Positions 3,408 to 25,593 of a stretch of 29,033 nucleotides of DNA are shown piece after piece (positions within the stretch are counted from its first letter, which is position 1; each line of letters begins with the position of its first letter). The stretch is from a virus. The stretch lies in IMG/VR virus record IMGVR_UViG_3300042288_001762, positions 1-29,033 of that record; one strand, written 5' to 3'. Both the position numbers and the translations under genes were made by a program. The notes below the pieces were generated by a model. That model did not search any database. It had not been told where the DNA came from and was given only the letters and a program-made list of their open reading frames with translations.

Positions 3408-5348
3408 TTACAGTGTTCTTGGCTCTGAGCCTAGTGGACTTGTCGGGGGCTTAAGCGTTATTTGCGGGCTGGATTCGGGCTTCCAGCCGCTTGTATGGCC
3501 AGAAACGCCAAATTGTTCGCCACGGGCGAGGGCAGGAACATAACTGCTGCCGCTAGTGTCGCTGCCACGACCCCTGTGAACGCTGTTTAAAAATCCGCGC
3601 TCTTGATACGAACCCAGCATGCGCGTCATCCAGTCGGGGTCGTTGGAAATGTTAGCCATGCCGCGGACCATCTCTGCCTCAAACGGCGGCGGTTCTTTGT
3701 GCGCCTGAATGTTATTTATTCCGTATTTTTTGAGATTGTCAGCTACGCTTTTTGTTATTTTCGTGCCGATCGAATAATGCAACACAGGTTCTTCAAGATA
3801 ATGATTTGTCAGCGTTGTGGGCGCGGCGGCGATGGCACCAGACCGCGGTTTCCAAGACCGTTCAAGCATAGAGTACGGCACGATATCGTCCGGCGAGTAA
3901 TCGCCGTATTCGTCGTTAAGCCTGACGTGATTAATGAGCCCGCGGGCGACAAGCTCAATATTGCGCCGATGCGATGTAATGCCAGAATTCCCAAGCACCT
4001 GCCGCATGGCTTGTACAAAATACTTCCGACCCTCACCAACGCCTTTATGTCTCACAATTTCGGCGGGGTTGGGCATGCCGTCAGATAACACGTCGCCGGC
4101 TTCGAGCGCGTCGTTTTTTTTAACTGTTACTTGCCTGTCAGCCGGGACATAATGATCTTCGCCGTCGACCGTGACGTAAAACCCGCCCTGCGCTGCTGGT
4201 TTGATTTCTTGCACGCGCCCCTCGCGTTGCGAATGCGTTGCGCCGTCGGGATACCTTTTCGGAACCTGTACGAGCGCGTTGATAGCTTTAAACCCGCCAA
4301 TGGCGGCGGCGCCGCCGACTCCGCCCGAGTGTTTGCTAGATATCATGGATTGCGTCAACGGCTCAGACAACGCCTGCGCGGCGGCAATACCTACATAGTC
4401 GCCGACGGGCGGGACGCCGTTCTTTTCGCGATACCCTACGTCTTTAGCGTATACGCCGCCGTCGTCCGGCCCGCCGACAAGCGGGCTGCGGACTAAAATA
4501 TCTTTAACACCCATTTCTTTGATATCTTTAAGAATCTTGGGCGTTAGCACTGTGTTGCGCTTGTACGGCCCAACAGGTCGCGACAAGAAAGCGCCTTCAT
4601 TATCCGGGTCGTCTACATCTGACGGCAGCCCGCGATTGTGCGACGTTGCAAGCCGCTCCTCGTCGTCATCGTCGTCTGCGGTAACGAGCAACCGGTGCGC
4701 CGTTTGCGTAAGTTGTTTGCTGTAAAAACCAGCGTCAGCAGTAGCCGTTTTTAAATCTATCACGCCCTTGCGCGTTCCGAACGACGCGGCAAAATACTCG
4801 GCCGGCGTCAGACCTCTGCTGTAACTATGCGTGACTGGCAGCGCGATAGGGTTGTCATTGTGGTCGACGTATTGCAAGTCTGCGCCAATAAGTGAATTAA
4901 GCTGAAACTTGTTGCCAGTCGCGCCAGAAAGCACTTGATGCGCTAACGGGTTATTGGCGTCGCGAGCCTCATTAAAAACATCTTCTACAAGTTTCTGCTG
5001 CGTCTCGGCCGCCAGTTTGAGAATTTTTAACTCGCGTTCTTTGTCTGACAAATTTGTATCCGCCATAATTTGCCGCAGTTCTTTGCGCACTTTAACCTGC
5101 GCATGCTGGCTCGCAAACGTGGGCCGAATGTCTTTCAAACCCATTGATAAGCCGCCGGTCGTGTACCCGACGTCACGCGATACGTCATGAATTTTTTTCA
5201 TGACTTCTCGATACTTGTCAGGATAACGCTTGGCGAGATCAGTGGCCAACGCGCCCATATTTTTCTTGTCCAACACGCGCTCGTAATCGCGCATGTCGTC
5301 GGGCAATGTCTCGTTTATCATTAACTGGCCGAGAGTTGTTTTTAACAC
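3408..5348 (-). CDS. RNA polymerase beta-prime subunit, C-terminal part (split)
   Basis: A 646-residue protein that continues beta-prime where the fused upstream chain ends. Residues 3-17 match the TTxGR..NExLP region. Residues 140-215 hold the F-loop and bridge helix (SRGLTPAEYFAASFGTRKG, then TATADAGFYSKQL). Residues 318-345 are the trigger-loop start (VGIAAAQALSEPLTQ ... KHSGG), with the catalytic histidine at about 340 kept, while the usual Met-Arg-x-Phe around it reads Ile-Ser-Ser-Lys. Residues 410-490 match the NPxEIxRxKG region and the helices after it. The second zinc site of cellular beta-prime should lie before VGIAAAQ, but this stretch (RSPLVGGPDDGGVYAKDVGY) has no cysteine. The start at 5348 lies 7 bases after the 71-residue gene's stop. 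The last 60 residues are Ser/Gly/Pro-rich and probably disordered. It must assemble with the 1476-residue chain to make an active enzyme. Confidence 0.95.
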   Translation of the reverse strand: MLKTTLGQLMINETLPDDMRDYERVLDKKNMGALATDLAKRYPDKYREVMKKIHDVSRDVGYTTGGLSMGLKDIRPTFASQHAQVKVRKELRQIMADTNLSDKERELKILKLAAETQQKLVEDVFNEARDANNPLAHQVLSGATGNKFQLNSLIGADLQYVDHNDNPIALPVTHSYSRGLTPAEYFAASFGTRKGVIDLKTATADAGFYSKQLTQTAHRLLVTADDDDDEERLATSHNRGLPSDVDDPDNEGAFLSRPVGPYKRNTVLTPKILKDIKEMGVKDILVRSPLVGGPDDGGVYAKDVGYREKNGVPPVGDYVGIAAAQALSEPLTQSMISSKHSGGVGGAAAIGGFKAINALVQVPKRYPDGATHSQREGRVQEIKPAAQGGFYVTVDGEDHYVPADRQVTVKKNDALEAGDVLSDGMPNPAEIVRHKGVGEGRKYFVQAMRQVLGNSGITSHRRNIELVARGLINHVRLNDEYGDYSPDDIVPYSMLERSWKPRSGAIAAAPTTLTNHYLEEPVLHYSIGTKITKSVADNLKKYGINNIQAHKEPPPFEAEMVRGMANISNDPDWMTRMLGSYQERGFLNSVHRGRGSDTSGSSYVPALARGEQFGVSGHTSGWKPESSPQITLKPPTSPLGSEPRTL

Positions 5349-6287: not shown

Positions 6288-9200
6288 TCAGGCTTTATCT
6301 TCCACAATGTGTACCGGCGTGTCTACGTCAATATCGCCTCGCCGATACGCGGCCAAAGCGTCTTTTTTCGTGCGGTAAACCCGCGGCTTGGATTTGTTAT
6401 TCATCTTACTGGACGCTAAGTATACACCAGTTTGATAATCTTTGTTGGGTACGTAATGGGCTTTAAAGTTAGCCGCCGCAAATAAATTCTTGCTGGGCAT
6501 CATTTTTTCGATGGCTTCTTTAGCCGCCTCTTCAGTACTGGGCACGTGATATTGCATGGCGTCGCCGTCGAAATCTGCGGCAAATCCCTTGGTAATTACG
6601 GGATTTACTTCCATGACTTTGTTCTTTGTCAGCCGCGGATAGAACGCCATAACGCCGTATCGGTGTAAAACCGGCGCGCGATTAATAATAATAGGCTTGG
6701 AATTCATTTGCACGTTTAACTCGGCAAATGCCTCTTTATTGCGTTCTTCTACAGCCCGCAAAGCGTTCATTCGGGGCGAACCACGGCGAATCAGGCCGCG
6801 AACGACGAATGGCTTGTAAATCTCCCACGCCTTGTCTTCTGGCAGCGCGACTTCGTCCATGTCCAAATCTGGGTTAGGAGTAATAACAGCGCGGCCAACA
6901 AGGTCTACGGTGCTGGAAAGTAACTTGCGTTGCATCGTCCCGAACTTGGGGCTATCGCCGAATATCTTCGACAAGAACCCGCGGACGTTGCGTTCGACGT
7001 TTTTGGGGTGCTGCGGGTCGCCGAGACCTGTCACGGCTTTCATGGAATCATAAAGCGCCAGCCGTTCGTTACCCACGTCTGATAACATGCCGGACGCATC
7101 TTTCAAAACGTTATTGGACTCCAACAGTTCTTTGTACAAATAGTTCGCGTCGTCAATAAGCTGCATCTTCTTGGCGCCCATCGTTGATACGGGCCTAAAC
7201 GCCGGCGGCAATACGCCGACCTTGGTTTGCATCCAGTCTTTCGGGTGCACACCGGTTGCTTCTGCGCCTTTTAGAAACGCCAGCCGACGCACGGCTGCGT
7301 CGCGGAGCGTGGTGCGGCCAGATTTGATATCAGCGCGTGCCTGCTCGACTGCGCGCGGTAGATTGATATCTTTAAGCGCGTCTCGAATAGCTGTCGGCCC
7401 GGTTTTGTTGTTCAACTGTTCTTGTCCCGCCAACACCGCACGGAATTTCTTTTCTGTAAGCCCAAGCGTACGGCGAATTGGCTCTTCCATGATCGGATTG
7501 GGCATCGGCTCGTGTAATGTTATTTTCGACCACCGATTTCCGTTATGCCCGCCGGTCAGCGTCTCATCAAATAGCCCGCCTTTGACTGGTTTAAGATTGC
7601 CTTTCCAGTCCACGGTTTCAGCGTTCTGTAACTCGCGGGCGCCGGCAAGCTCATCGATGTTTTTGTCGGTTAACGCCATAATGTTTGTTTTTGTTCCGGT
7701 ACGCACAACGTTTACGCCAGAACCGCGCAACTGATTAACAAACTTCTCGTAAACGTGCGGCACCTTTGGCAGCGGCGGATCATAACCAGCCATGAACTGC
7801 GTCCAATATTCTGGGTTGGCTTGCCCACGTACCATCTTGGCGTCGCGGACTACTTTGCCAGCCCCGTGCGATAACAGCGCGCCAAGCTCTAACATACCTA
7901 CTCGCTTTGCGCCTTCAGTGCCGCCCTTAGCAGGCGTACCCTCGGCTGTATATCCGCCGATCGACCGACCTTGGCCTTTTGACTCGGCAGTGTGATGCAG
8001 CTTCATAAAGAAACGATTGCCGGTCAGTACGCCGCGAATCTTTCGGCCCGTTTCCGGATCAATCAAATCTTCGGTGTCTGTTAATCCGTGTTTAGCCAAC
8101 TCATTGGTAGCCATTTCAACCAAATCATTTTCGTTATCGAAGTCTTTGATTTTGAATTGCTGCCCGGTCTTTTCGGCCACCTTGCCTAACGCAGTTTCTA
8201 CAATCTGCGCAGGATTTACGCGGCTAACAAGCCCGAGCGGACTGACAAGAATTTCAAGCGGGCGGTTTTGCGCGTCATGCGGCATTTGATGGTCGGGTAC
8301 GATCTCTGACACGACGCCCTTGTCGCCGAAACGTCCGGTAATCTTGTCGCCCACTTCCATCTGCGCCTGCGATTTAACAACGACTGACACGCCTTTTTTG
8401 GTGTGCTCGACGTCTGTTACAACGCCCGGCGAATGGTGGTCCCACGTCATCGTCTCATTGGCAAAGGCGCCGGCTCTACCCCGGTGAACTTTGCCATAGA
8501 CCGTGTCGCGCTTTTTAGCGACAAGCACAAGTGGGTCGCCGAAATTAACGACAGTGCCTTTTTGAACCGCGCCGTTGGCGTCAAACTTGTCCAACATTTT
8601 TTTGTCATACTCGGCGGGGAAAAGGCTCAAGAAAGCTTTTTTACCGACATGCGTGTTGTCGTCCCACTCAGCCTCGTGCTGGTACATGTGCTGGCTGGTA
8701 AGACGCTTGGCGGCTGATTCGGAAATAACTACAGCGTCTTCGTAATTGCGCCCGCGGAACGGCGTGTAACCGACCCGAAGATTTAAACCCAGTGCCGCTG
8801 TCCCGTTCTTGTCAGTAAAATTGCTCGTAGCAATAAGCTGCCCGGGCTTCACAGTATCGCCGGGTTTTACAGTCGGCTGTTGCGTCCAGAACGTCTTGCG
8901 ATTGAACGGCATGTCGTTGTAAAGATCAACAACGTGCTTGTTGCCGTCTTTATCGCGAATGATCATTTCATCGGGCGAGACAGACAATACCTGCCCGCCA
9001 ACTTCGGCTTTAATAGCGCCCAGTTTTTCGCCCATTTCGTCTTCGTGAGAAACGCTGCCGTCGCCGTCGAACTTGGCCGACTGCACAAACGGGGCTTCCG
9101 CGTTTTCAAGCGGCAGAGCTTGCGTAAACATGCGGCTACCCATGATAACGCGCTGGCCTTTTACCATGCTTTTCATCGGCACCATGTTTGTCAGCGCCGA

Positions 9201-10718
9201 GAACGTGTTGTCCATGTTCGGCACTGTGTACTTGGCGTCCTTGCGCGGCACGTATTTAATTTTGCCGTTTACAAGAGCCGCCACCATCGGCATGTCTGAT
9301 TTTTCTTCGCCGGGAAACATCAGCGGCATATCGGCGAGTTCTTGCGGCGTCTTGTACTCTGTCTTGCCGGTATTGGCGTCTTTTACAGGCACCACGAACG
9401 TGTGCAAATTATTACCCAGCTTGCGGGCGCCGGCAGCAAAACGCATGTCTACGCCCACCTTGCCAGACTCCGGCGTGCGGAGATAGTCGATAAAGCCGAA
9501 GTGGCTGGGCTGCACGCTGCGCGATTCTGCCGGCACGGCGTCCAGTGAGCCAATGCCGCCCTCGCCAAGTCTGGTCACGCGCGTCTGGTGGTCGAAGATT
9601 TCGGCGGGGTTGATTTCTTCAAGGCTGGACCCCAAACCAGACCCGATCAGCGCAGCCGTAATAGACTTGTTGAATACGCCGCTAGGAATATGGTCCAGAG
9701 ATTTCTTGGCCGTGGCTTTCCAAAGCAATTGCCGCAAAGCAGACTTATCCTTGACGAATCTTTCAGATATCAAATCCTCCGGGCCAAATACTTGCTGGAA
9801 CGTCATGCTGTCGCGGTCGTCGCTTTCGGCTTCTTTGCGGTTGACGGCGATCAGCTTCTTGGTGATGTCCAGAATGGCGTCCGGCGTAAGATTTTTATAC
9901 GGCTTGCCCAGCGTGCGCTTGGTAACTTCTTCGTCTAACTCTGTCTTGGCGAACTCCGCAGCAATAGCTTTGATCTTGGCAAGCTGATCTGCGCCCGGTT
10001 CTGGCTTAAATACGAGCCGCTGATAAAGCTTATCCAGCGTGCCGGCGTCGCCCTTCTGCATATTAACGGCCGTGATCTCGTTGCCCCACGCTTCCCGTAT
10101 TTGCTTGTCCTGCGCGCCGAGTGTTTTCAGCAGTGGCATAAGCGGAATCTTGGCCTGCCCGATCTGAATCTGGAACTCGCCGGTTTTGGGGTCCATGTAA
10201 TACCGGTGCGACCGGCCCTTACCGGGCAGCGTATTAACATGCGATTCAAGCTCGCCGTTATCTTTCTCGCGCGTGAACACGCCCGGCCTGAGTCGCAGTT
10301 GATGCGCCAATGTGTATTCGACACCTTTGTTTACAAACGTACCCGAGTCGGTGAGATATGGCACATTAGCTATAGTCGCCTGTCGCGTAGCGACAGGCTT
10401 TTCCGAGCCATTTTCTGTTAAAGTCCACGTACCTGTTAACTTTCGCGCTAACGAGCCGCGAGTTAATACAGCTTTCTTTTGATCTTTACGCGAGTAACGT
10501 TCGGGGCCGGCATAGCCCACGTTTGTTAACTTTAGCGTGTACAGGTCGTTTTGAATTGGCTCAATACCGGAAGCCGACTTCAGCGCCTCGTTAAAGATAT
10601 TATCTCGCAGCGCATTCACGTCGCCGAAAGCGCGCGTTTGCTGCTGCGGAAATGCCGGCGCTGGCAAAGAAGGCACGGCAGGGTCGCGAAGCGGTGGAAG
10701 CGGGTCTGACATCGTCAC
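6288..10718 (-). CDS. Fused RNA polymerase beta and N-terminal beta-prime subunit
   Basis: A 1476-residue chain. Beta features come first: the fork/lobe motif GTFVNKGVEYT (126), the rifampicin-pocket region INPAEIFDHQTRVTRLGEGG (369-388), SVQPSHFGFIDYLRTPE (401), QALPLENAEAP (about 533), GRNYEDAVVISE (656) and GDKITGRFGDKGV with both active-site lysines (792, 800). GGTEGAKRVGMLELGALLSHGA (932-953) marks the beta C-terminus. Beta-prime starts near 1013 (IMALTDKNIDELAGARE), has no cysteines where the first zinc finger should be, and continues through LLSSTVDLVGRAVI, INRAPVLHR and the catalytic AADFDGDAMQ (Asp 1383, 1385, 1387). It ends near E. coli beta-prime residue 600. The start may be GTG 10718, which overlaps the previous stop (GTGA), or ATG 10712; AAGGGG lies upstream. 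It needs the 646-residue gene to complete beta-prime. No alpha, omega or sigma subunit is visible in the window. Confidence 0.96.
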   Translation of the reverse strand: MTMSDPLPPLRDPAVPSLPAPAFPQQQTRAFGDVNALRDNIFNEALKSASGIEPIQNDLYTLKLTNVGYAGPERYSRKDQKKAVLTRGSLARKLTGTWTLTENGSEKPVATRQATIANVPYLTDSGTFVNKGVEYTLAHQLRLRPGVFTREKDNGELESHVNTLPGKGRSHRYYMDPKTGEFQIQIGQAKIPLMPLLKTLGAQDKQIREAWGNEITAVNMQKGDAGTLDKLYQRLVFKPEPGADQLAKIKAIAAEFAKTELDEEVTKRTLGKPYKNLTPDAILDITKKLIAVNRKEAESDDRDSMTFQQVFGPEDLISERFVKDKSALRQLLWKATAKKSLDHIPSGVFNKSITAALIGSGLGSSLEEINPAEIFDHQTRVTRLGEGGIGSLDAVPAESRSVQPSHFGFIDYLRTPESGKVGVDMRFAAGARKLGNNLHTFVVPVKDANTGKTEYKTPQELADMPLMFPGEEKSDMPMVAALVNGKIKYVPRKDAKYTVPNMDNTFSALTNMVPMKSMVKGQRVIMGSRMFTQALPLENAEAPFVQSAKFDGDGSVSHEDEMGEKLGAIKAEVGGQVLSVSPDEMIIRDKDGNKHVVDLYNDMPFNRKTFWTQQPTVKPGDTVKPGQLIATSNFTDKNGTAALGLNLRVGYTPFRGRNYEDAVVISESAAKRLTSQHMYQHEAEWDDNTHVGKKAFLSLFPAEYDKKMLDKFDANGAVQKGTVVNFGDPLVLVAKKRDTVYGKVHRGRAGAFANETMTWDHHSPGVVTDVEHTKKGVSVVVKSQAQMEVGDKITGRFGDKGVVSEIVPDHQMPHDAQNRPLEILVSPLGLVSRVNPAQIVETALGKVAEKTGQQFKIKDFDNENDLVEMATNELAKHGLTDTEDLIDPETGRKIRGVLTGNRFFMKLHHTAESKGQGRSIGGYTAEGTPAKGGTEGAKRVGMLELGALLSHGAGKVVRDAKMVRGQANPEYWTQFMAGYDPPLPKVPHVYEKFVNQLRGSGVNVVRTGTKTNIMALTDKNIDELAGARELQNAETVDWKGNLKPVKGGLFDETLTGGHNGNRWSKITLHEPMPNPIMEEPIRRTLGLTEKKFRAVLAGQEQLNNKTGPTAIRDALKDINLPRAVEQARADIKSGRTTLRDAAVRRLAFLKGAEATGVHPKDWMQTKVGVLPPAFRPVSTMGAKKMQLIDDANYLYKELLESNNVLKDASGMLSDVGNERLALYDSMKAVTGLGDPQHPKNVERNVRGFLSKIFGDSPKFGTMQRKLLSSTVDLVGRAVITPNPDLDMDEVALPEDKAWEIYKPFVVRGLIRRGSPRMNALRAVEERNKEAFAELNVQMNSKPIIINRAPVLHRYGVMAFYPRLTKNKVMEVNPVITKGFAADFDGDAMQYHVPSTEEAAKEAIEKMMPSKNLFAAANFKAHYVPNKDYQTGVYLASSKMNNKSKPRVYRTKKDALAAYRRGDIDVDTPVHIVEDKA

Positions 10719-16021: not shown

Positions 16022-16849
16022 TCAGGTTTTCGGTACAAGCACATAGGGCCGGCCGTTAATTACAATTGTGCCGCCTACTTTTAACGCGGCGTCTTTTGTA
16101 ATCGGATACTTATCCGCGCGTTTGCCGTACAATTTGACAATTTCAGCAATATCGCCTTTTTGCGGCGATGTAACATTTGGATCATAATACGGCGCCATGA
16201 GATTGCCGTTGTTTAAATGCGGCAAACCCAGCGCATGGCCAAGTTCGTGGCAAATGACGGCCACAGCCATATTAAACGACCACGGCTCAGCTTCGTCGAA
16301 CATCTGGTCTAACTGCACGTTTTCTGCTGCGCCACACGGCAACTCGCTCCACGCTAAAGTACCGCCACGGTTATCGAGGTTGTACTTTCTGCCGCTTCCG
16401 GACTTCGCGTAAATATTTGCGCGAGACGAACCCTCAACGCGGGTCGGCTCAATGTTGCAAACTTCGGCCCACTGGCTGAACGCCGTGTCATATGCTTCTT
16501 TGACCTGTTCGTCGGTCATTCCCGGCATTTTAATTTCGTGATAGTACGTGATCTTCGCCATCGGCCATTTGCAGGGACCGCCGCTTGGATCAGTCAAACC
16601 AAAGTCAGGCAACCCGCATCGGCGCCTGTTGAGCCTGTGCGCCGTGACATCGTCTACGCATCCGCACTCGTCTATCCCATTGAACTTTTGATAAGCGCAA
16701 ATAGCTTTTTCAAGCTCTTTACCCTTAATAGCTTTGACCTTAGACCAAGGCTTTTTATCAAAGTAGCCAAGGTTGAAAAGATATTTAAGCACTTCCTGCG
16801 GCGGCAACACGTGCGCCGTCTCTGTAGCTTTTTTTGGCTTCCTTGCCAT
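16022..16849 (-). CDS. Matrix-metalloprotease-like zymogen with cysteine switch
   Basis: A 275-residue protein with the layout of a short pro-MMP. Residues 17-70 form a peptidoglycan-binding-like helical prodomain (EVLKYLFNLGYF ... ICAYQKFNGI). Residues 75-84 hold a cysteine switch (RRRCGLPDFG; Cys 78), matching the PRCGxPD motif that keeps MMPs inactive. The catalytic domain has a Gly-rich Ca/Zn loop (LDNRGGTLAWSELPCG, VQLDQMFDEAEPW) and the zinc site HELGHALGLPH (201-211; His 201, Glu 202, His 205, His 211), with a Met-turn at NLMAP (Met 218). A C-terminal module of about 45 residues follows (KVGGTIVINGRPYVLVPK). No signal peptide and no hemopexin domain are seen. AGGTG precedes ATG 16849. 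A latent secreted- or virion-type peptidase is implied; its target is unknown. Confidence 0.93.
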   Translation of the reverse strand: MARKPKKATETAHVLPPQEVLKYLFNLGYFDKKPWSKVKAIKGKELEKAICAYQKFNGIDECGCVDDVTAHRLNRRRCGLPDFGLTDPSGGPCKWPMAKITYYHEIKMPGMTDEQVKEAYDTAFSQWAEVCNIEPTRVEGSSRANIYAKSGSGRKYNLDNRGGTLAWSELPCGAAENVQLDQMFDEAEPWSFNMAVAVICHELGHALGLPHLNNGNLMAPYYDPNVTSPQKGDIAEIVKLYGKRADKYPITKDAALKVGGTIVINGRPYVLVPKT

Positions 16850-18961: not shown

Positions 18962-19204
18962 TTATTTAAATAGCCTGCGCACAAAAAGAACGACCGCCCG
19001 CAAGCAGATATAAACCCAAGCAATAAAACCGCTGATAGCAAAAAAAACAATTGCCGGAACGCTGAGCAGAACAGGCCAAAGTTCTTTTAGATTTACCGTG
19101 CTTAGTAACGCCCAAACGCGAAGCCACGGTGTCTGGGTACGTTCAACCGGCGGCGTATTGTCTGGTTTTTTCTTCTTCCCCCAAAAATAATCGATATAGC
19201 TCAT
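18962..19204 (-). CDS. Short membrane protein
   Basis: An 80-residue protein with a basic N-terminus (FWGKKKKPDNTPP) and a long hydrophobic stretch that could span the membrane once or twice (ELWPVLLSVPAIVFFAISGF then IAWVYICLRAVVLFV), ending with a basic FVRRLFK. Its ATG overlaps the stop of the 2H-phosphoesterase-like gene (ATGA), so translation is coupled. Small hydrophobic proteins of this type are common beside holins. No family is recognised. Confidence 0.65.
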   Translation of the reverse strand: MSYIDYFWGKKKKPDNTPPVERTQTPWLRVWALLSTVNLKELWPVLLSVPAIVFFAISGFIAWVYICLRAVVLFVRRLFK

Positions 19205-20814
19205 TTGGGTTTTCCAAAAACGGTGTTCATAAAACTGTCGCCATAACGGCCGATAACTTGATCGACCATAGGCTCTTCTTCCATTTCATTATTCATGGCT
19301 TTCATAGCCAATTGATATCTGTAATGTGGATCAACAGCCGCCATGTACCTTTGATGGTTCAGCTTTGCGTTGCGCATGAAATCGCCGCGCTGCTTTACTT
19401 GCGTGAATTGGTCTTGGATATTTTCAGCGACTGTTTTGTCGTAGTTGTATTGCATCGGGCGATTGAGCCCAAAAGAATTGTAAAGCGCGGTGCCGTATGC
19501 GCTTCTCTGTTGCCTGTACGCGGCCTTAACAGATTCCGGTATGGCCGTAGGTTCGACGTGAAATTTAAAACTCGTCGGCGTGTGCGTAATACCCTTGTGA
19601 TATGGCTTCGGGTCGTCTACGTGCCAGTCTTTCGGGGCTTTTGCCATTAGCCGCCGCAGAATTTCTGTCTTCTGGGGATATCGTTTGTTATCAGAATGTT
19701 CTTTGGCTTCACGCAGTTCGTCGATGATTCTGCGAACGTCGGCGCTTTGTTTCTGCTCTTCTTCGTCTTTCGGTTCTGTCGGGTCTGGCAATTGCTGCCC
19801 TGACGGCGGAAGTTCAGGCGCGGGCACAGAGCCGAATGCGACGTCGTTTACAACCGGCGGCGGCATCGGAGGCGGCGCTGTTTCTTCCGCTGGCTGTTCG
19901 GCCGGTTTTGTCGGCATGGGAATGCGCGAACTAGCGGCTGTCTTACCGGTAATCAGCGTTTCTTTTTTGTAGTACTGGGGGTTTGCTTGCAGATGATCTT
20001 TGGCAATTTCTTTGGCGATTTGATCATTGTTTGTGTGTTCGTGCTCATCTTCTGCTCCTTCGGCTAAAGCCTTTGGCGGAAACTTACTGTCAGGAATTCC
20101 GTCGGCTGCGCCTCCGGGAAGTTTGTCTGCTGCGGCTGCTTTTGTCGTACCGCTGCAACGACCATGTTGTTTGCACGTACACGTCTCGGGGCACATGCAC
20201 GGGCCGGAACAAGCACAGTCGTACGTTGTCTTGTTGTCTGCGGCTGCTTTGCTGACACGGTTCGCGTTCAACACGCTTTTCCGCCGCACGGCCACAGTAA
20301 TGTGAAACGGATGGCCGTTCAGCGTCGGCTGCAAGCCGTAACTTTTGCGAATGGCGGCCAGCATGGGCGAAGAAACCTGCAGCGCCCAAACTTTGCTAAC
20401 GCCGTCGATATTGCGCGGCGAAATTTCTTTTAGCTGGCCAAGAGAGTAACCGACCATGTGGCCGCGCTCATTAATATTCTCTGGGCCGATCTTTTTCACT
20501 TCTTCGGCGTTCATGACCGAAATATGCGCATTTAAAACGTCGCTGGCGACGTTGGGCACGTTTAATGTGCCCGCCCGGGGAAGTTCCGCACCGGGGGCTG
20601 TCAGGGCGTCGTATACGCCTCTTACAAGGGCGTTGGGCACCGACAGGAGCAGCCAGCCGCTTTTGGCGACGTAAAGCCGGCCAGCGAGCGCGTGATGCGT
20701 GGCAGCTTGTTTCTCACTACGAGAAAGCCAACCAATGGCATTGCCAATGTTATATTCGCGCTGGGAGGTCGCTGGCGCTAGCCATGACCCGTCAAGAATA
20801 GAAAAGCCATCCAT
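19201..20814 (-). CDS. 2H-phosphoesterase-like protein with cysteine-rich and disordered regions
   Basis: A 537-residue protein. The N-terminal domain (about 35-180) carries two His-x-Ser/Thr motifs about 74 residues apart, NAHISVM (His 97, Ser 99) and PFHITVAV (His 171, Thr 173), preceded by IRKSYGLQPTLNGH. This is the 2H phosphoesterase (LigT/CPDase) pattern: both histidines would act on cyclic phosphate or 2'-5' bonds. Next is a cysteine-rich patch (about 200-220: CACSGPCMCPETCTC and a later Cys) that could bind zinc. A long Pro/Glu-rich region follows, and the C-terminal half is helical and charged. The family link is by motif spacing, and the substrate is not predicted. It could modify nucleotides or RNA ends during infection. 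The ATG at 20814 lies 17 bases after the previous stop. Confidence 0.75.
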   Translation of the reverse strand: MDGFSILDGSWLAPATSQREYNIGNAIGWLSRSEKQAATHHALAGRLYVAKSGWLLLSVPNALVRGVYDALTAPGAELPRAGTLNVPNVASDVLNAHISVMNAEEVKKIGPENINERGHMVGYSLGQLKEISPRNIDGVSKVWALQVSSPMLAAIRKSYGLQPTLNGHPFHITVAVRRKSVLNANRVSKAAADNKTTYDCACSGPCMCPETCTCKQHGRCSGTTKAAAADKLPGGAADGIPDSKFPPKALAEGAEDEHEHTNNDQIAKEIAKDHLQANPQYYKKETLITGKTAASSRIPMPTKPAEQPAEETAPPPMPPPVVNDVAFGSVPAPELPPSGQQLPDPTEPKDEEEQKQSADVRRIIDELREAKEHSDNKRYPQKTEILRRLMAKAPKDWHVDDPKPYHKGITHTPTSFKFHVEPTAIPESVKAAYRQQRSAYGTALYNSFGLNRPMQYNYDKTVAENIQDQFTQVKQRGDFMRNAKLNHQRYMAAVDPHYRYQLAMKAMNNEMEEEPMVDQVIGRYGDSFMNTVFGKPK

Positions 20815-20830: not shown

Positions 20831-21022
20831 TTACTGCCGGGCTGTTACGGCATCTGCGGCCGCCGTGGTTTCGCCGGAGGATTTATTTTCAGCGCCGATT
20901 ACGTGCACCGAAAGAAACATGACCCAGCCGCATAAAAAGGCCATCACCCACGCCATCAGACTCATTTGGTTTCGTGCGTGTTGATCAATCATTGTTGGTA
21001 TCGTCGTGGCGGTGTAGGTCAT
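20831..21022 (-). CDS. Small membrane protein overlapping the holin gene
   Basis: A 63-residue reading frame with one membrane segment (LMAWVMAFLCGWVMFLSVHVIG) and a polar, alanine-rich C-terminus. It overlaps the end of the holin gene by 38 bases from ATG 21022, or by 8 bases if ATG 20992 (MIDQHARNQ) is the start. Neither start has a strong ribosome site, so coupling to the holin is likely. Overlapping small genes of this kind can be spanins or antiholins, but no lipobox is present. The start choice is uncertain. Confidence 0.55.
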   Translation of the reverse strand: MTYTATTIPTMIDQHARNQMSLMAWVMAFLCGWVMFLSVHVIGAENKSSGETTAAADAVTARQ

Positions 21023-21344
21023 CTCGGTCCCTTTCGTGATTAATGATGACTTTTATGCCTGCGCCGGACAAGAGCGAAATTAGAACATCGGTAATCGTGG
21101 ACCCGCCCATGCCAGCCAACACGCAAATCCCTATCAACCCATGAACATTCGCGGCTTCCCGGTAGTTTTGATACCAAATCAACGAAATAGCGAGGCCGAG
21201 AAACCCCGCATTCATCATCGAGCTAACAACAGCTAGTTTAGAAAGTTTACGACTGAAACGCAAAAGAGTGGCCAGCCCCGCAAACGCCGAAACGCCGAAG
21301 GCTGCAGCGAACACGGATAACGACGCGATAAACTCATCAAACAT
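20985..21344 (-). CDS. LydA-like holin
   Basis: A 119-residue protein with three hydrophobic segments: SVFAAAFGVSAFAGLATLL (about 10-28), LAVVSSMMNAGFLGLAISLIWY (about 37-58) and HGLIGICVLAGMGGSTITDVLISLL (about 68-92), ending in a charged tail with His/Arg/Asp. The order and motifs (AGLATLLR, NAGFLGLAISLIWY, GICVLAGMGGSTITD) resemble the LydA-type holin family of phages. The holin would form lesions in the inner membrane to time lysis. It is the first gene after the structured RNA and leader at 21396-21630. A spanin or endolysin is not recognised next to it. Confidence 0.75.
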   Translation of the reverse strand: MFDEFIASLSVFAAAFGVSAFAGLATLLRFSRKLSKLAVVSSMMNAGFLGLAISLIWYQNYREAANVHGLIGICVLAGMGGSTITDVLISLLSGAGIKVIINHERDRDDLHRHDDTNND

Positions 21345-21374
21345 AGATTTAAACTAGTGCTGTGACTCGTTTTA

Positions 21375-21395: not shown

Positions 21396-21630
21396 TAAAA
21401 AGGTGTGTACCGCAAGCCCCCGCGATCCCCTATCCGCGGGTCCGACCCTAATTAAAAATTAGGGCTTCACGGCAACTTTCGAGGGCATATTTACCCTGTG
21501 TGGTATTTGCCGCGCCTCCGATCGTGTTCACGACTAAACCTGACCACGAAACCATGTCGCGCTCGCTGCATCCCTGCATTGGCCGCAACCCTAACCAGCC
21601 GACCACCACGGCTAACTTACGGTACACACC
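21396..21630 (-). ncRNA. Candidate structured RNA closed by a 17-bp stem and ending in a U-tract
   Basis: Read on the minus strand, bases 21630-21614 pair with 21418-21402 over 17 contiguous positions (14 Watson-Crick, 3 G-T). The 3' arm is followed directly by five T residues (21401-21397). Inside are further helices: 21597-21613 (5 bp, directly against the closing stem), 21507-21512 with 21470-21475 (6 bp) enclosing 21483-21496 (5 bp), 21446-21464 (8 bp, loop of 3) and 21419-21440 (6 bp, directly against the closing stem). Several are contiguous with no gaps, as in a multi-helix junction. A TATAAT sits at 21632-21637. The alternatives are a holin leader/attenuator or a 43-codon reading frame (21448-21579). 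I match it to no known family. It is in the only gap over 300 bases, between the GDPD-like gene and the holin. Confidence 0.6.
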
Positions 21631-21637: not shown

Positions 21638-21640
21638 CAA

Positions 21641-21663
21641 ACTACCGAGCTTTACTCGGTAGT
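21641..21663 (-). terminator. 9-bp hairpin after the GDPD-like gene
   Basis: ACTACCGAG (21641-21649) and CTCGGTAGT (21655-21663) form a perfect 9-bp stem with a 5-base loop. On the minus strand it is followed by TTGTATAATT, a weak T-rich stretch. It lies about 30 bases after the stop at 21693, so it may terminate that gene. It also overlaps the region upstream of the TATAAT. Confidence 0.5.
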
Positions 21664-21692
21664 TGGCGCCGCGGATTGTCAAAGAACTGCTG

Positions 21693-22148
21693 TTAGATAT
21701 AACTCAGCGGCTCATTACTGCATAGGCCCGCTGGCTCGGAATTTTCAAGCCACGACCGTTCGGCCGTTTCGGGCAGCATCGCAATTGACCGAGAAACCAG
21801 TTCGTGCGGCGGTAAAGTCCAAATAAACTGCGAACTAGTTAACGACATGAAGTTTTCACTGTTTAAAAAACAATGTGCGTTAATGTTACAGAGCGCGTCA
21901 ACCGTGTCGGGGCTGTGTGCGCGGCACCAAACGCGCTGCTTTGATAACAAGGCCGGAGGGGCGACGTTAAATCCGCCGTCAAACGGCAGAATAAAACTGC
22001 CCTGATAGAAAACAATGTCAACGCAGACGTGCCAGCCTTCTTTCAACGCTTTCTGCACATATGCCAATGTGTTTTCAAGCTCTGGCTTTCGGCCGTTTGT
22101 GTTTCCAAGATGTGAAATAATAATGCCATCAAAAGCCTGCCTGCGCAT
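21693..22148 (-). CDS. Glycerophosphodiesterase-like (GDPD-fold) protein, possibly inactive
   Basis: A 151-residue protein resembling a short GDPD-type family found in phages and bacteria. It has ISHLGNTNGRKPELENT (residues 11-27), matching the catalytic H-R/L-G...ENT start. A conserved region follows (WHVCVDIVFYQGSFILPFDGG) in which the usual catalytic HD is replaced by FD (56-57). WCRAHSPDTVDALC, LTSSQFIWTLPPHE and SIAMLPE come later, as in the family. The His-to-Phe change suggests altered or lost phosphodiesterase activity. The ATG at 22148 has AGGGA upstream. It lies between terminators, so it could be its own unit. The function is unproven. Confidence 0.65.
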   Translation of the reverse strand: MRRQAFDGIIISHLGNTNGRKPELENTLAYVQKALKEGWHVCVDIVFYQGSFILPFDGGFNVAPPALLSKQRVWCRAHSPDTVDALCNINAHCFLNSENFMSLTSSQFIWTLPPHELVSRSIAMLPETAERSWLENSEPAGLCSNEPLSYI

Positions 22149-22247: not shown

Positions 22248-23282
22248 TCAGAGAACTTTTGCCGCGATCAAACAGCCGCGCGCAACAGCGTGCAGCGGGT
22301 CAGCAGCGTGCCGAACTTCTTTGATCGGCAACGGAAAACCGTTCTCGGCAATTTTCTTTTCAAACATCTGCACGAAACCTGCCGCCTGCGTTGTGCCGCC
22401 CGCCAAAGATATCAAAAGCGGATTCTTGAACTTAGGCAGCAGTTTGTGCCCGCGGAGCGCATTGGCCAACTGCTTCGTGGTGTAGTCGATCAGCCGTTCG
22501 TAGTACGCGCTGACGGCGGCGAGCACTGGGTTCTCGTTCTGCTCGCCAATTGCGAACTCGCTCTGTTCTTTTTCGGCCTGCACAACGCTGTCCGGCTCGC
22601 CAGTCGCGATGCCGGCCATTCGGTCGATCCAGTCGCCTGACTTGGTTGTGGAAAACGTGACGGTCGGCTCACCGTTGAGCATGACGCAGCAATTCACCAT
22701 GCCGGCGCCCCACGACAGCGCGATGCCAGTGTAATCGTCGTTTTCTAGCTCCGAGTAGCACAGCGCTTCTGCCTCATTGATGGCGCGGGCGTTGTACCCT
22801 TGGGCCTGCAAGACTGTTTTTACGACGTCTTCGTGGTAGCCCACGTCGAACTCGTCGTCTTCTTGGTCAACGGGTTGCGCCGGAATACAAAACACCAGCT
22901 TTTCGTTTTCTTCAGCAGCTTTACCGCAGACTTCCTGCAAGATATACGCCAGCACGCGCTTGGCTTCTTTTTCTTTTGGGCTGACAACGCCGCGGTACAT
23001 AGGCCGTTTCGCAGAGTCGTTGCGCTCGACGGCTTTCTCGATGGCGTCTTGGCCGAGAATAATAAAAGACCCATCGGTGTCCTTGACGAACACTTTACCC
23101 TGCAAACCCTTCTCGATCATCTTTGTCGCGACCGGCGTGGTGGGCTTGATGATAAAAAAAGCATCACGGAAGTCGGTGTACTTTACGTAACCAAATTTAT
23201 CGTCACTCGTGTAGCTGACCGGGGCGTCTGAGTCCGAGGCTAAAACAATAAACGAAGTCCCGACGTCTAAACCTTTGGCCAT
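22248..23282 (-). CDS. Actin-like ATPase with an altered phosphate-2 loop
   Basis: A 344-residue protein with the actin/Hsp70 fold. Phosphate-1 is GLDVGTSFIVLA (4-15, Asp 6). VFCIPAQP lies at about 130. Connect-1 is INEAEALCY (168-176). Phosphate-2 is GIALSWGAGMVNCCVM (186-201). The adenosine loop is ISLAGGTTQAAGF (291-303), and the end HAADPLHAVARGCLIAA is typical of the superfamily. The usual Asp of phosphate-2 (DxGxG) is Ser 190 here, so nucleotide hydrolysis may be changed. Related phage and plasmid actin-like proteins form filaments that position DNA; filament formation here is inferred. The ATG at 23282 has AGGAG upstream, and a terminator follows the gene. Confidence 0.85.
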   Translation of the reverse strand: MAKGLDVGTSFIVLASDSDAPVSYTSDDKFGYVKYTDFRDAFFIIKPTTPVATKMIEKGLQGKVFVKDTDGSFIILGQDAIEKAVERNDSAKRPMYRGVVSPKEKEAKRVLAYILQEVCGKAAEENEKLVFCIPAQPVDQEDDEFDVGYHEDVVKTVLQAQGYNARAINEAEALCYSELENDDYTGIALSWGAGMVNCCVMLNGEPTVTFSTTKSGDWIDRMAGIATGEPDSVVQAEKEQSEFAIGEQNENPVLAAVSAYYERLIDYTTKQLANALRGHKLLPKFKNPLLISLAGGTTQAAGFVQMFEKKIAENGFPLPIKEVRHAADPLHAVARGCLIAAKVL

Positions 23283-25504: not shown

Positions 25505-25516
25505 TGCGCCTCCAAA

Positions 25517-25588
25517 CTGCCCGAGTAGGATTTGAACCTACAACCCCAGCATTAACAGTGCCGTGCACTACCGTTGTGCTATCGGGCA
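25517..25588 (-). tRNA. tRNA-Asn (anticodon GTT)
   Basis: The sequence folds into a full cloverleaf: a 7-bp acceptor stem (TGCCCGA with TCGGGCA), a D stem GCAC/GTGC, an anticodon stem CGGCA/TGCTG with loop CTGTTAA (anticodon GTT), and a T stem GTAGG/CCTAC with loop TTCAAAT. The discriminator is G and CCA is not encoded, so it would be added after transcription. It lies 5 bases from the end of the ferritin-like gene. Lone tRNAs are common in large phages. Confidence 0.93.
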
Positions 25589-25593
25589 AAATG

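Follow-up and report, generated by a model that had tools for sequence, protein, structure and literature searches.

Phage RNA structures comparable to the present element

Translation of phage lysis genes can be controlled by RNA structure, as by the structure at the start site of the lambda S gene and the leader hairpin of the T4 lysozyme gene e. How lysis is timed in large phages is poorly understood. Here, we describe an RNA from a lineage of uncultured large phages that resembles these two elements in being an RNA structure that would head the mRNA of a lysis gene, and hence a possible timing device. The lambda S and T4 e elements, however, are small hairpins that lie over the start site, whereas the present RNA folds into a pseudoknotted domain of 229 nt, stops 17-69 nt short of the start and is preceded by a -10-like box of its own.

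Several other phage RNAs offer partial parallels. In phage Melnitz, a glutamine riboswitch controls tmRNA, and riboswitches in phages have been described as rare (PMC9004378). The present RNA would likewise be a phage-borne leader of conserved structure, but nothing in Rfam matches it, an expression platform is not visible, and the gene is a different one. The HK022 putRNA (PMC9378689), a phage RNA that arises close to a promoter and can act in cis while nascent, is comparable in this respect; it differs in gene context, size and sequence. GOLLD and ROOL are ornate pseudoknotted phage RNAs of unknown function that are often found near tRNA genes (PMC12286853), and in the present lineage a tRNA-Asn gene often follows the holin-like gene. 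GOLLD and ROOL are several hundred nucleotides long, however, and the Rfam models of known families fail to match the present RNA. Type III toxin-antitoxin systems (ToxIN) were also considered and rejected, because the RNA is a single 229-nt domain rather than tandem repeats and the gene downstream is holin-like rather than an endoribonuclease.

The comparison with known families was made against Rfam 15 (4227 families), where the RNA had no match at the gathering score. A relaxed search returned only engA (15.6 of 46 bits, E 0.97) and a miRNA model (E 6.3), both below threshold, and searches with the relatives gave nothing relevant. The sole Rfam match in the window is a tRNA-Asn that lies elsewhere, so that the initial annotation was right to set the RNA apart from tRNA, tmRNA and RNase P. 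No description of such an element was found in the open-access literature. We file the RNA as a new family of a known broad kind, the structured phage leader; a new mechanism is unproven.

The locus and its strand

The window, meaning the whole stretch of DNA analysed, is an IMG/VR virus record of 29,033 bases in which the minus strand carries nearly all genes. The structured RNA lies in a gap of 348 bases that separates the gene at 21693-22148 from that at 20985-21344. Read along the minus strand, the gap contains a hairpin, the sequence TATAAT (21637-21632), the RNA itself (229 nt, 5' to 3' from 21630 to 21402) and then five T residues (Table 1). The RNA is assigned to the minus strand because the main genes of the window all lie there, because the five T residues come after the stem on that strand alone, and because pairing scored with G-U pairs allowed holds in 96.8% of cells on the minus strand versus 85.1% on the plus-strand complement. 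Compared with 200 shuffled sequences, the fold is far more stable (z -4.8 for the minus strand, z -5.0 for the plus strand), in agreement with the original view that it is unlikely to arise by chance. The claim of a structured RNA upstream of a holin was borne out with corrections, the RNA being 229 nt long and on the minus strand.

Table 1. Coordinates of the RNA, its structural elements and the flanking features in the window
Feature	Position	Strand	Evidence or remark
Structured RNA	21402-21630	-	match to model R1 (1-231), 229.5 bits
P1 closing stem, 5' strand (GGTGTGTACCGTAAGTT)	21614-21630	-	helix 1; 13/15 pairs changed on both sides
P1 closing stem, 3' strand (GGCTTGCGGTACACACC)	21402-21418	-	covariation
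P2 hairpin, stacked on P1	21597-21613	-	helix 2; 100% paired
Pseudoknot 5' strand GUGGU, inside P2 loop	21602-21606	-	helix 3; 100% paired
Pseudoknot 3' strand ACCAC, in P5 internal loop	21500-21504	-	covariation
P3 arm, variable in length, around conserved CA(G/T)GGATG cap	21556-21589	-	helix 4 and arm-swap test
P4 hairpin, conserved internal loop (CGUGGUCAG...CACG)	21522-21549	-	helix 5
P5 (21507-21513 with 21469-21475), capped by P5b (21482-21497)	21469-21513	-	helices 6 and 7
P6 hairpin, sequence free, often with UUCG-type loop	21445-21465	-	helix 8; 7/8 pairs changed on both sides
P7 hairpin, stacked on P1, invariant GGGGA in loop	21419-21440	-	helix 9
Five T's 3' of P1, unconserved	21397-21401	-	sequence; comparison of relatives
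-10-like box TATAAT, next to P1	21632-21637	-	beside P1 in 44/53 relatives
Clade-variable hairpin just upstream of -10 box	21640-21664	-	comparison of relatives
CTTTGACA box	21677-21684	-	26-66 nt upstream of -10 box in most relatives
Holin-like gene, 119 aa, three predicted helices	20985-21344	-	always next downstream of RNA

A conserved fold with a pseudoknot

The closing stem P1 had been described as 17 bp spanning 200 bases. The stem is real, but it consists of 15-17 bp, two U-G pairs among them, and encloses 229 nt. At least four helices had been proposed within it, two of them directly against the closing stem. Comparison of relatives bears this out with six covarying helices or arms (P2, P3, P4, P5/P5b, P6 and P7), of which P2 and P7 abut P1. 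A pseudoknot that joins the P2 loop to the P5 internal loop had been missed.

The main evidence is a MAFFT alignment (A1) of 50 sequences with 244 columns, a mean identity of 72% and an Neff of 35. The nested structure comprises 60 pairs, 44 of them changed on both sides; with the pseudoknot included, 47 of 65 pairs have changed on both sides yet still pair, and the compensatory changes that had been named as the check on the fold are thus present in related phage contigs. Cells are paired in 96.8% of cases for the structure with pseudoknot, versus 34-44% when the partners are slid along the alignment. Cells with double changes number 551 against 175 in shuffles, and the covariation score is 0.517 against 0.271 shuffled and 0.09-0.15 slid (at most 0.147), with the qualification that the slid control accounts for the kinship of the sequences and the shuffles do not. 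Of the 60 column pairs that ranked highest in a covariation scan, 28 belong to the nested structure.

The pseudoknot pairs GUGGY in the P2 loop (columns 25-29) with RCCAC (columns 134-138), and was spotted by eye and then tested. All five pairs form in 50 of 50 sequences, three of the five show compensatory changes, and the column pair 29/134 stands at rank 30 in the covariation scan. The P3 arm, which MAFFT misaligned owing to its variable length, was tested without an alignment: arms paired with themselves average 10.8 bp, versus 6.8 when they are swapped between relatives. These RNAs form a family with a conserved secondary structure that includes a pseudoknot.

Much of the sequence constraint lies outside the helices, with 35 of the 62 invariant columns unpaired (50 sequences). 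The invariant unpaired bases include GGUUAG beside P2, GGxGG before P5, AxAAG opposite the pseudoknot and GGGGA in the P7 loop, and they suggest a specific binding partner for the RNA. The initial annotation had allowed that a short frame might instead be the translated product; among the relatives there are stops in all frames, and no open frame is shared or conserved.

Distribution of the RNA

Loci were gathered through volactin-like and holin-like neighbours and through sequence patterns. A profile search found 153 loci with the RNA (54 distinct sequences), and a search with the holin-like family gave 80 more (3 further distinct sequences); the sets overlap heavily, and many loci come from the same contigs. 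Full-length distinct sequences number 53, from dozens of IMG/VR contigs. All carriers are viral contigs, with a maximum length of about 200 kb, that belong to a single lineage of uncultured phages of about 200 kb, and genomes of 197-205 kb have one copy each, the only additional matches being two weaker and unconvincing ones (15 and 9 bits).

Beyond this lineage, the RNA did not turn up when cultured phages and plasmids were searched at the nucleotide level, and two pattern scans of viral contigs returned no copy. In bacterial genomes, a single exact-pattern scan yielded 36 chance matches, and none of these fits the model. Arash and D69, the cultured phages whose RNA polymerase is most similar, have no significant match to the RNA and no holin-like gene, and neither element was seen in divergent volactin contigs, which are fragments (L070, L077, L079 and others).

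The upstream region

The -10-like box is kept in several relatives in which the end of the volactin gene itself precedes it, and even where a different gene lies upstream. Since the box persists despite differing upstream sequence, it supports a transcription start at P1, as read from sequence comparison. A promoter scanner found no standard sigma-70 -35/-10 promoter at the upstream region of the RNA, and the CTTTGACA box is too distant for a normal -35; it is conservation that marks the TATAAT sequence as -10-like. The clade-variable hairpin sits between the two boxes. In a second clade (L170, L060, L064, L165, L140, L186 and L308), an extra hairpin lies between the -10-like box and P1, and P1 is shortened.

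Linkage to the holin-like gene

The gene downstream of the RNA probably encodes a holin-like protein, judging from weak profile matches and a three-helix shape; holins determine when the host cell bursts. In its family, 33 of 34 members match the PHROG holin family phrog_6384 (best E 9e-5) and 11 match phrog_785, while the window protein alone matches the holin profile weakly (E 2.6); 'holin-like' is therefore a family-level assignment. The predicted model has three helices with a mean pLDDT of 64, and hydropathy is a further line of evidence. Relatives of the protein were not found in annotated phages. The gene has no recognisable Shine-Dalgarno sequence in the window (21345-21368, minus strand), and the same is true of 24 of 50 relatives; most other genes of the window do have one.

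The RNA precedes each of the 80 holin-like homologues that were returned, on the same strand and 17-69 nt away. Across distinct loci, 17-58 nt separate the RNA from the gene; at the same loci, the distance from volactin to the RNA ranges over 17-4303 nt and that from the holin-like gene to the next gene over 150-701 nt. The outer distances vary while the inner one is tight, which argues that genes are gained and lost on the flanks of the RNA-holin unit but never inside it. Inherited gene order also contributes to this linkage, because the carriers all belong to one phage lineage. The earlier suggestion of a holin-linked regulatory RNA is supported by the invariant pairing of RNA and gene but is unproved.

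Tests of the output mechanism

The five T residues reported after the stem are present on the minus strand of the window, but they are not conserved: four or more T's follow P1 in only 17 of 50 relatives, and most relatives have no terminator between the RNA and the holin-like gene. A small RNA that ends at an intrinsic terminator was rejected on the same count, because a conserved U-run was not found. Competing pairing of the downstream 60-100 nt with the P1 strands, the whole RNA or the P3 arm was sought by comparing each locus's own downstream sequence with that of other loci; none was conserved, and P1 as a positive control gave -20.4 versus -9.9 kcal/mol. The leader had no effect on the predicted accessibility of the start (0.36 versus 0.37, from a programme that omits the pseudoknot). 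With no conserved alternative pairing and an unchanged start accessibility, no output mechanism is visible, and the three negative results together leave a textbook attenuator or start-sequestering switch unsupported. The results speak against both a simple terminator and a switch that sequesters the start site, and the proposal of an attenuator for lysis timing is not supported.

What the RNA may do

The reading that we favour, by a little better than even chances, is that the RNA heads the mRNA of the holin-like gene as a 5' leader that folds on its own, and acts in cis as a binding platform. Transcription would start at P1 and continue into the holin-like gene, so that RNA and gene are cotranscribed. 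The compact fold would then bind a partner in cis (a ligand, a protein, the ribosome or RNA polymerase) or, alternatively, protect the 5' end of the message and stabilise it. The leader might thereby set the amount of holin and the time of lysis, with translation, stability or elongation as candidate output steps. The RNA probably helps to control when the holin-like gene is expressed. That it serves as a sensor or scaffold, which reads a signal of the cell or the infection or engages the phage's own multisubunit RNA polymerase and thereby governs holin expression and lysis timing, is a tentative extension that we consider doubtful. With the RNA domain fixed before the holin-like gene, RNA-based lysis timing would become directly testable, and this orphan family, with its defined fold, pseudoknot and covariance model, is open to probing, searching and structure solution.

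Could the RNA instead be free-standing and act in trans, for example as a binding partner of phage or host machinery or a component of the particle, and merely adjoin the holin-like gene? Paired ends are typical of free-standing RNAs too, the 5' end lies at the -10-like box, and T residues follow the stem in the window and in the minority of relatives counted above. There is also no conserved pairing with the downstream gene, and each genome has one copy. Most relatives lack a terminator, however, and the RNA is never found apart from the holin-like gene despite gene gain and loss on both sides, which makes a trans-acting RNA unlikely, though it deserves serious attention.

A put-like antitermination RNA would also act in cis, by modifying RNA polymerase for reading the long downstream block. 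A block of about 20 kb on the same strand has the RNA at its promoter-proximal end, and a possible target exists in the multisubunit RNA polymerase that the phage itself encodes. We consider such a role quite improbable, as the RNA is much larger than known putRNA and unlike it, and the holin-like gene need not come first under this mechanism, yet always does.

A classical ligand-sensing riboswitch, with a platform that hides or frees the holin-like start site, would fit the compact, aptamer-like pseudoknotted fold, the many invariant unpaired bases and the constant position before one gene. In several relatives, linkers of 16-22 nt bring P1 to the edge of the ribosome site. An expression platform was not found, however, there being no competing pairing, accessibility effect or conserved terminator, and we hold this possibility to be very slight. 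That the stretch is protein-coding or a chance structure is practically negligible: the window copy does contain a short frame, but all frames are stopped, none is common to the relatives, and the helices covary.

Other genes of the window

Returning to the surroundings of the putative leader, the window also encodes a multisubunit RNA polymerase (3408-5348 and 6288-10718, minus strand), in which beta and the N-terminal portion of beta' form a fusion, with the C-terminal portion of beta' separate. Its nearest cultured relatives are in Salmonella phage Arash (33% identity over 98%) and Vibrio phages D69, D148 and D181. A Volactin/MreB-like actin gene lies at 22248-23282 on the minus strand (Pfam Volactin, 4e-59; 75 IMG/VR loci), and in the annotated collection it has distant matches only, to two uncultured huge phages. 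Downstream of the holin-like gene, the minus strand encodes a metallopeptidase of the matrixin type (M10) and a protein of 537 aa that contains a 2H phosphoesterase domain (16022-16849 and 19201-20814). The tRNA-Asn(GUU) gene of the window is at 25516-25589, upstream of the volactin gene; its alternative site is the gap directly after the holin-like gene, at loci that include L026:7453-7528 and L152:6266-6338.
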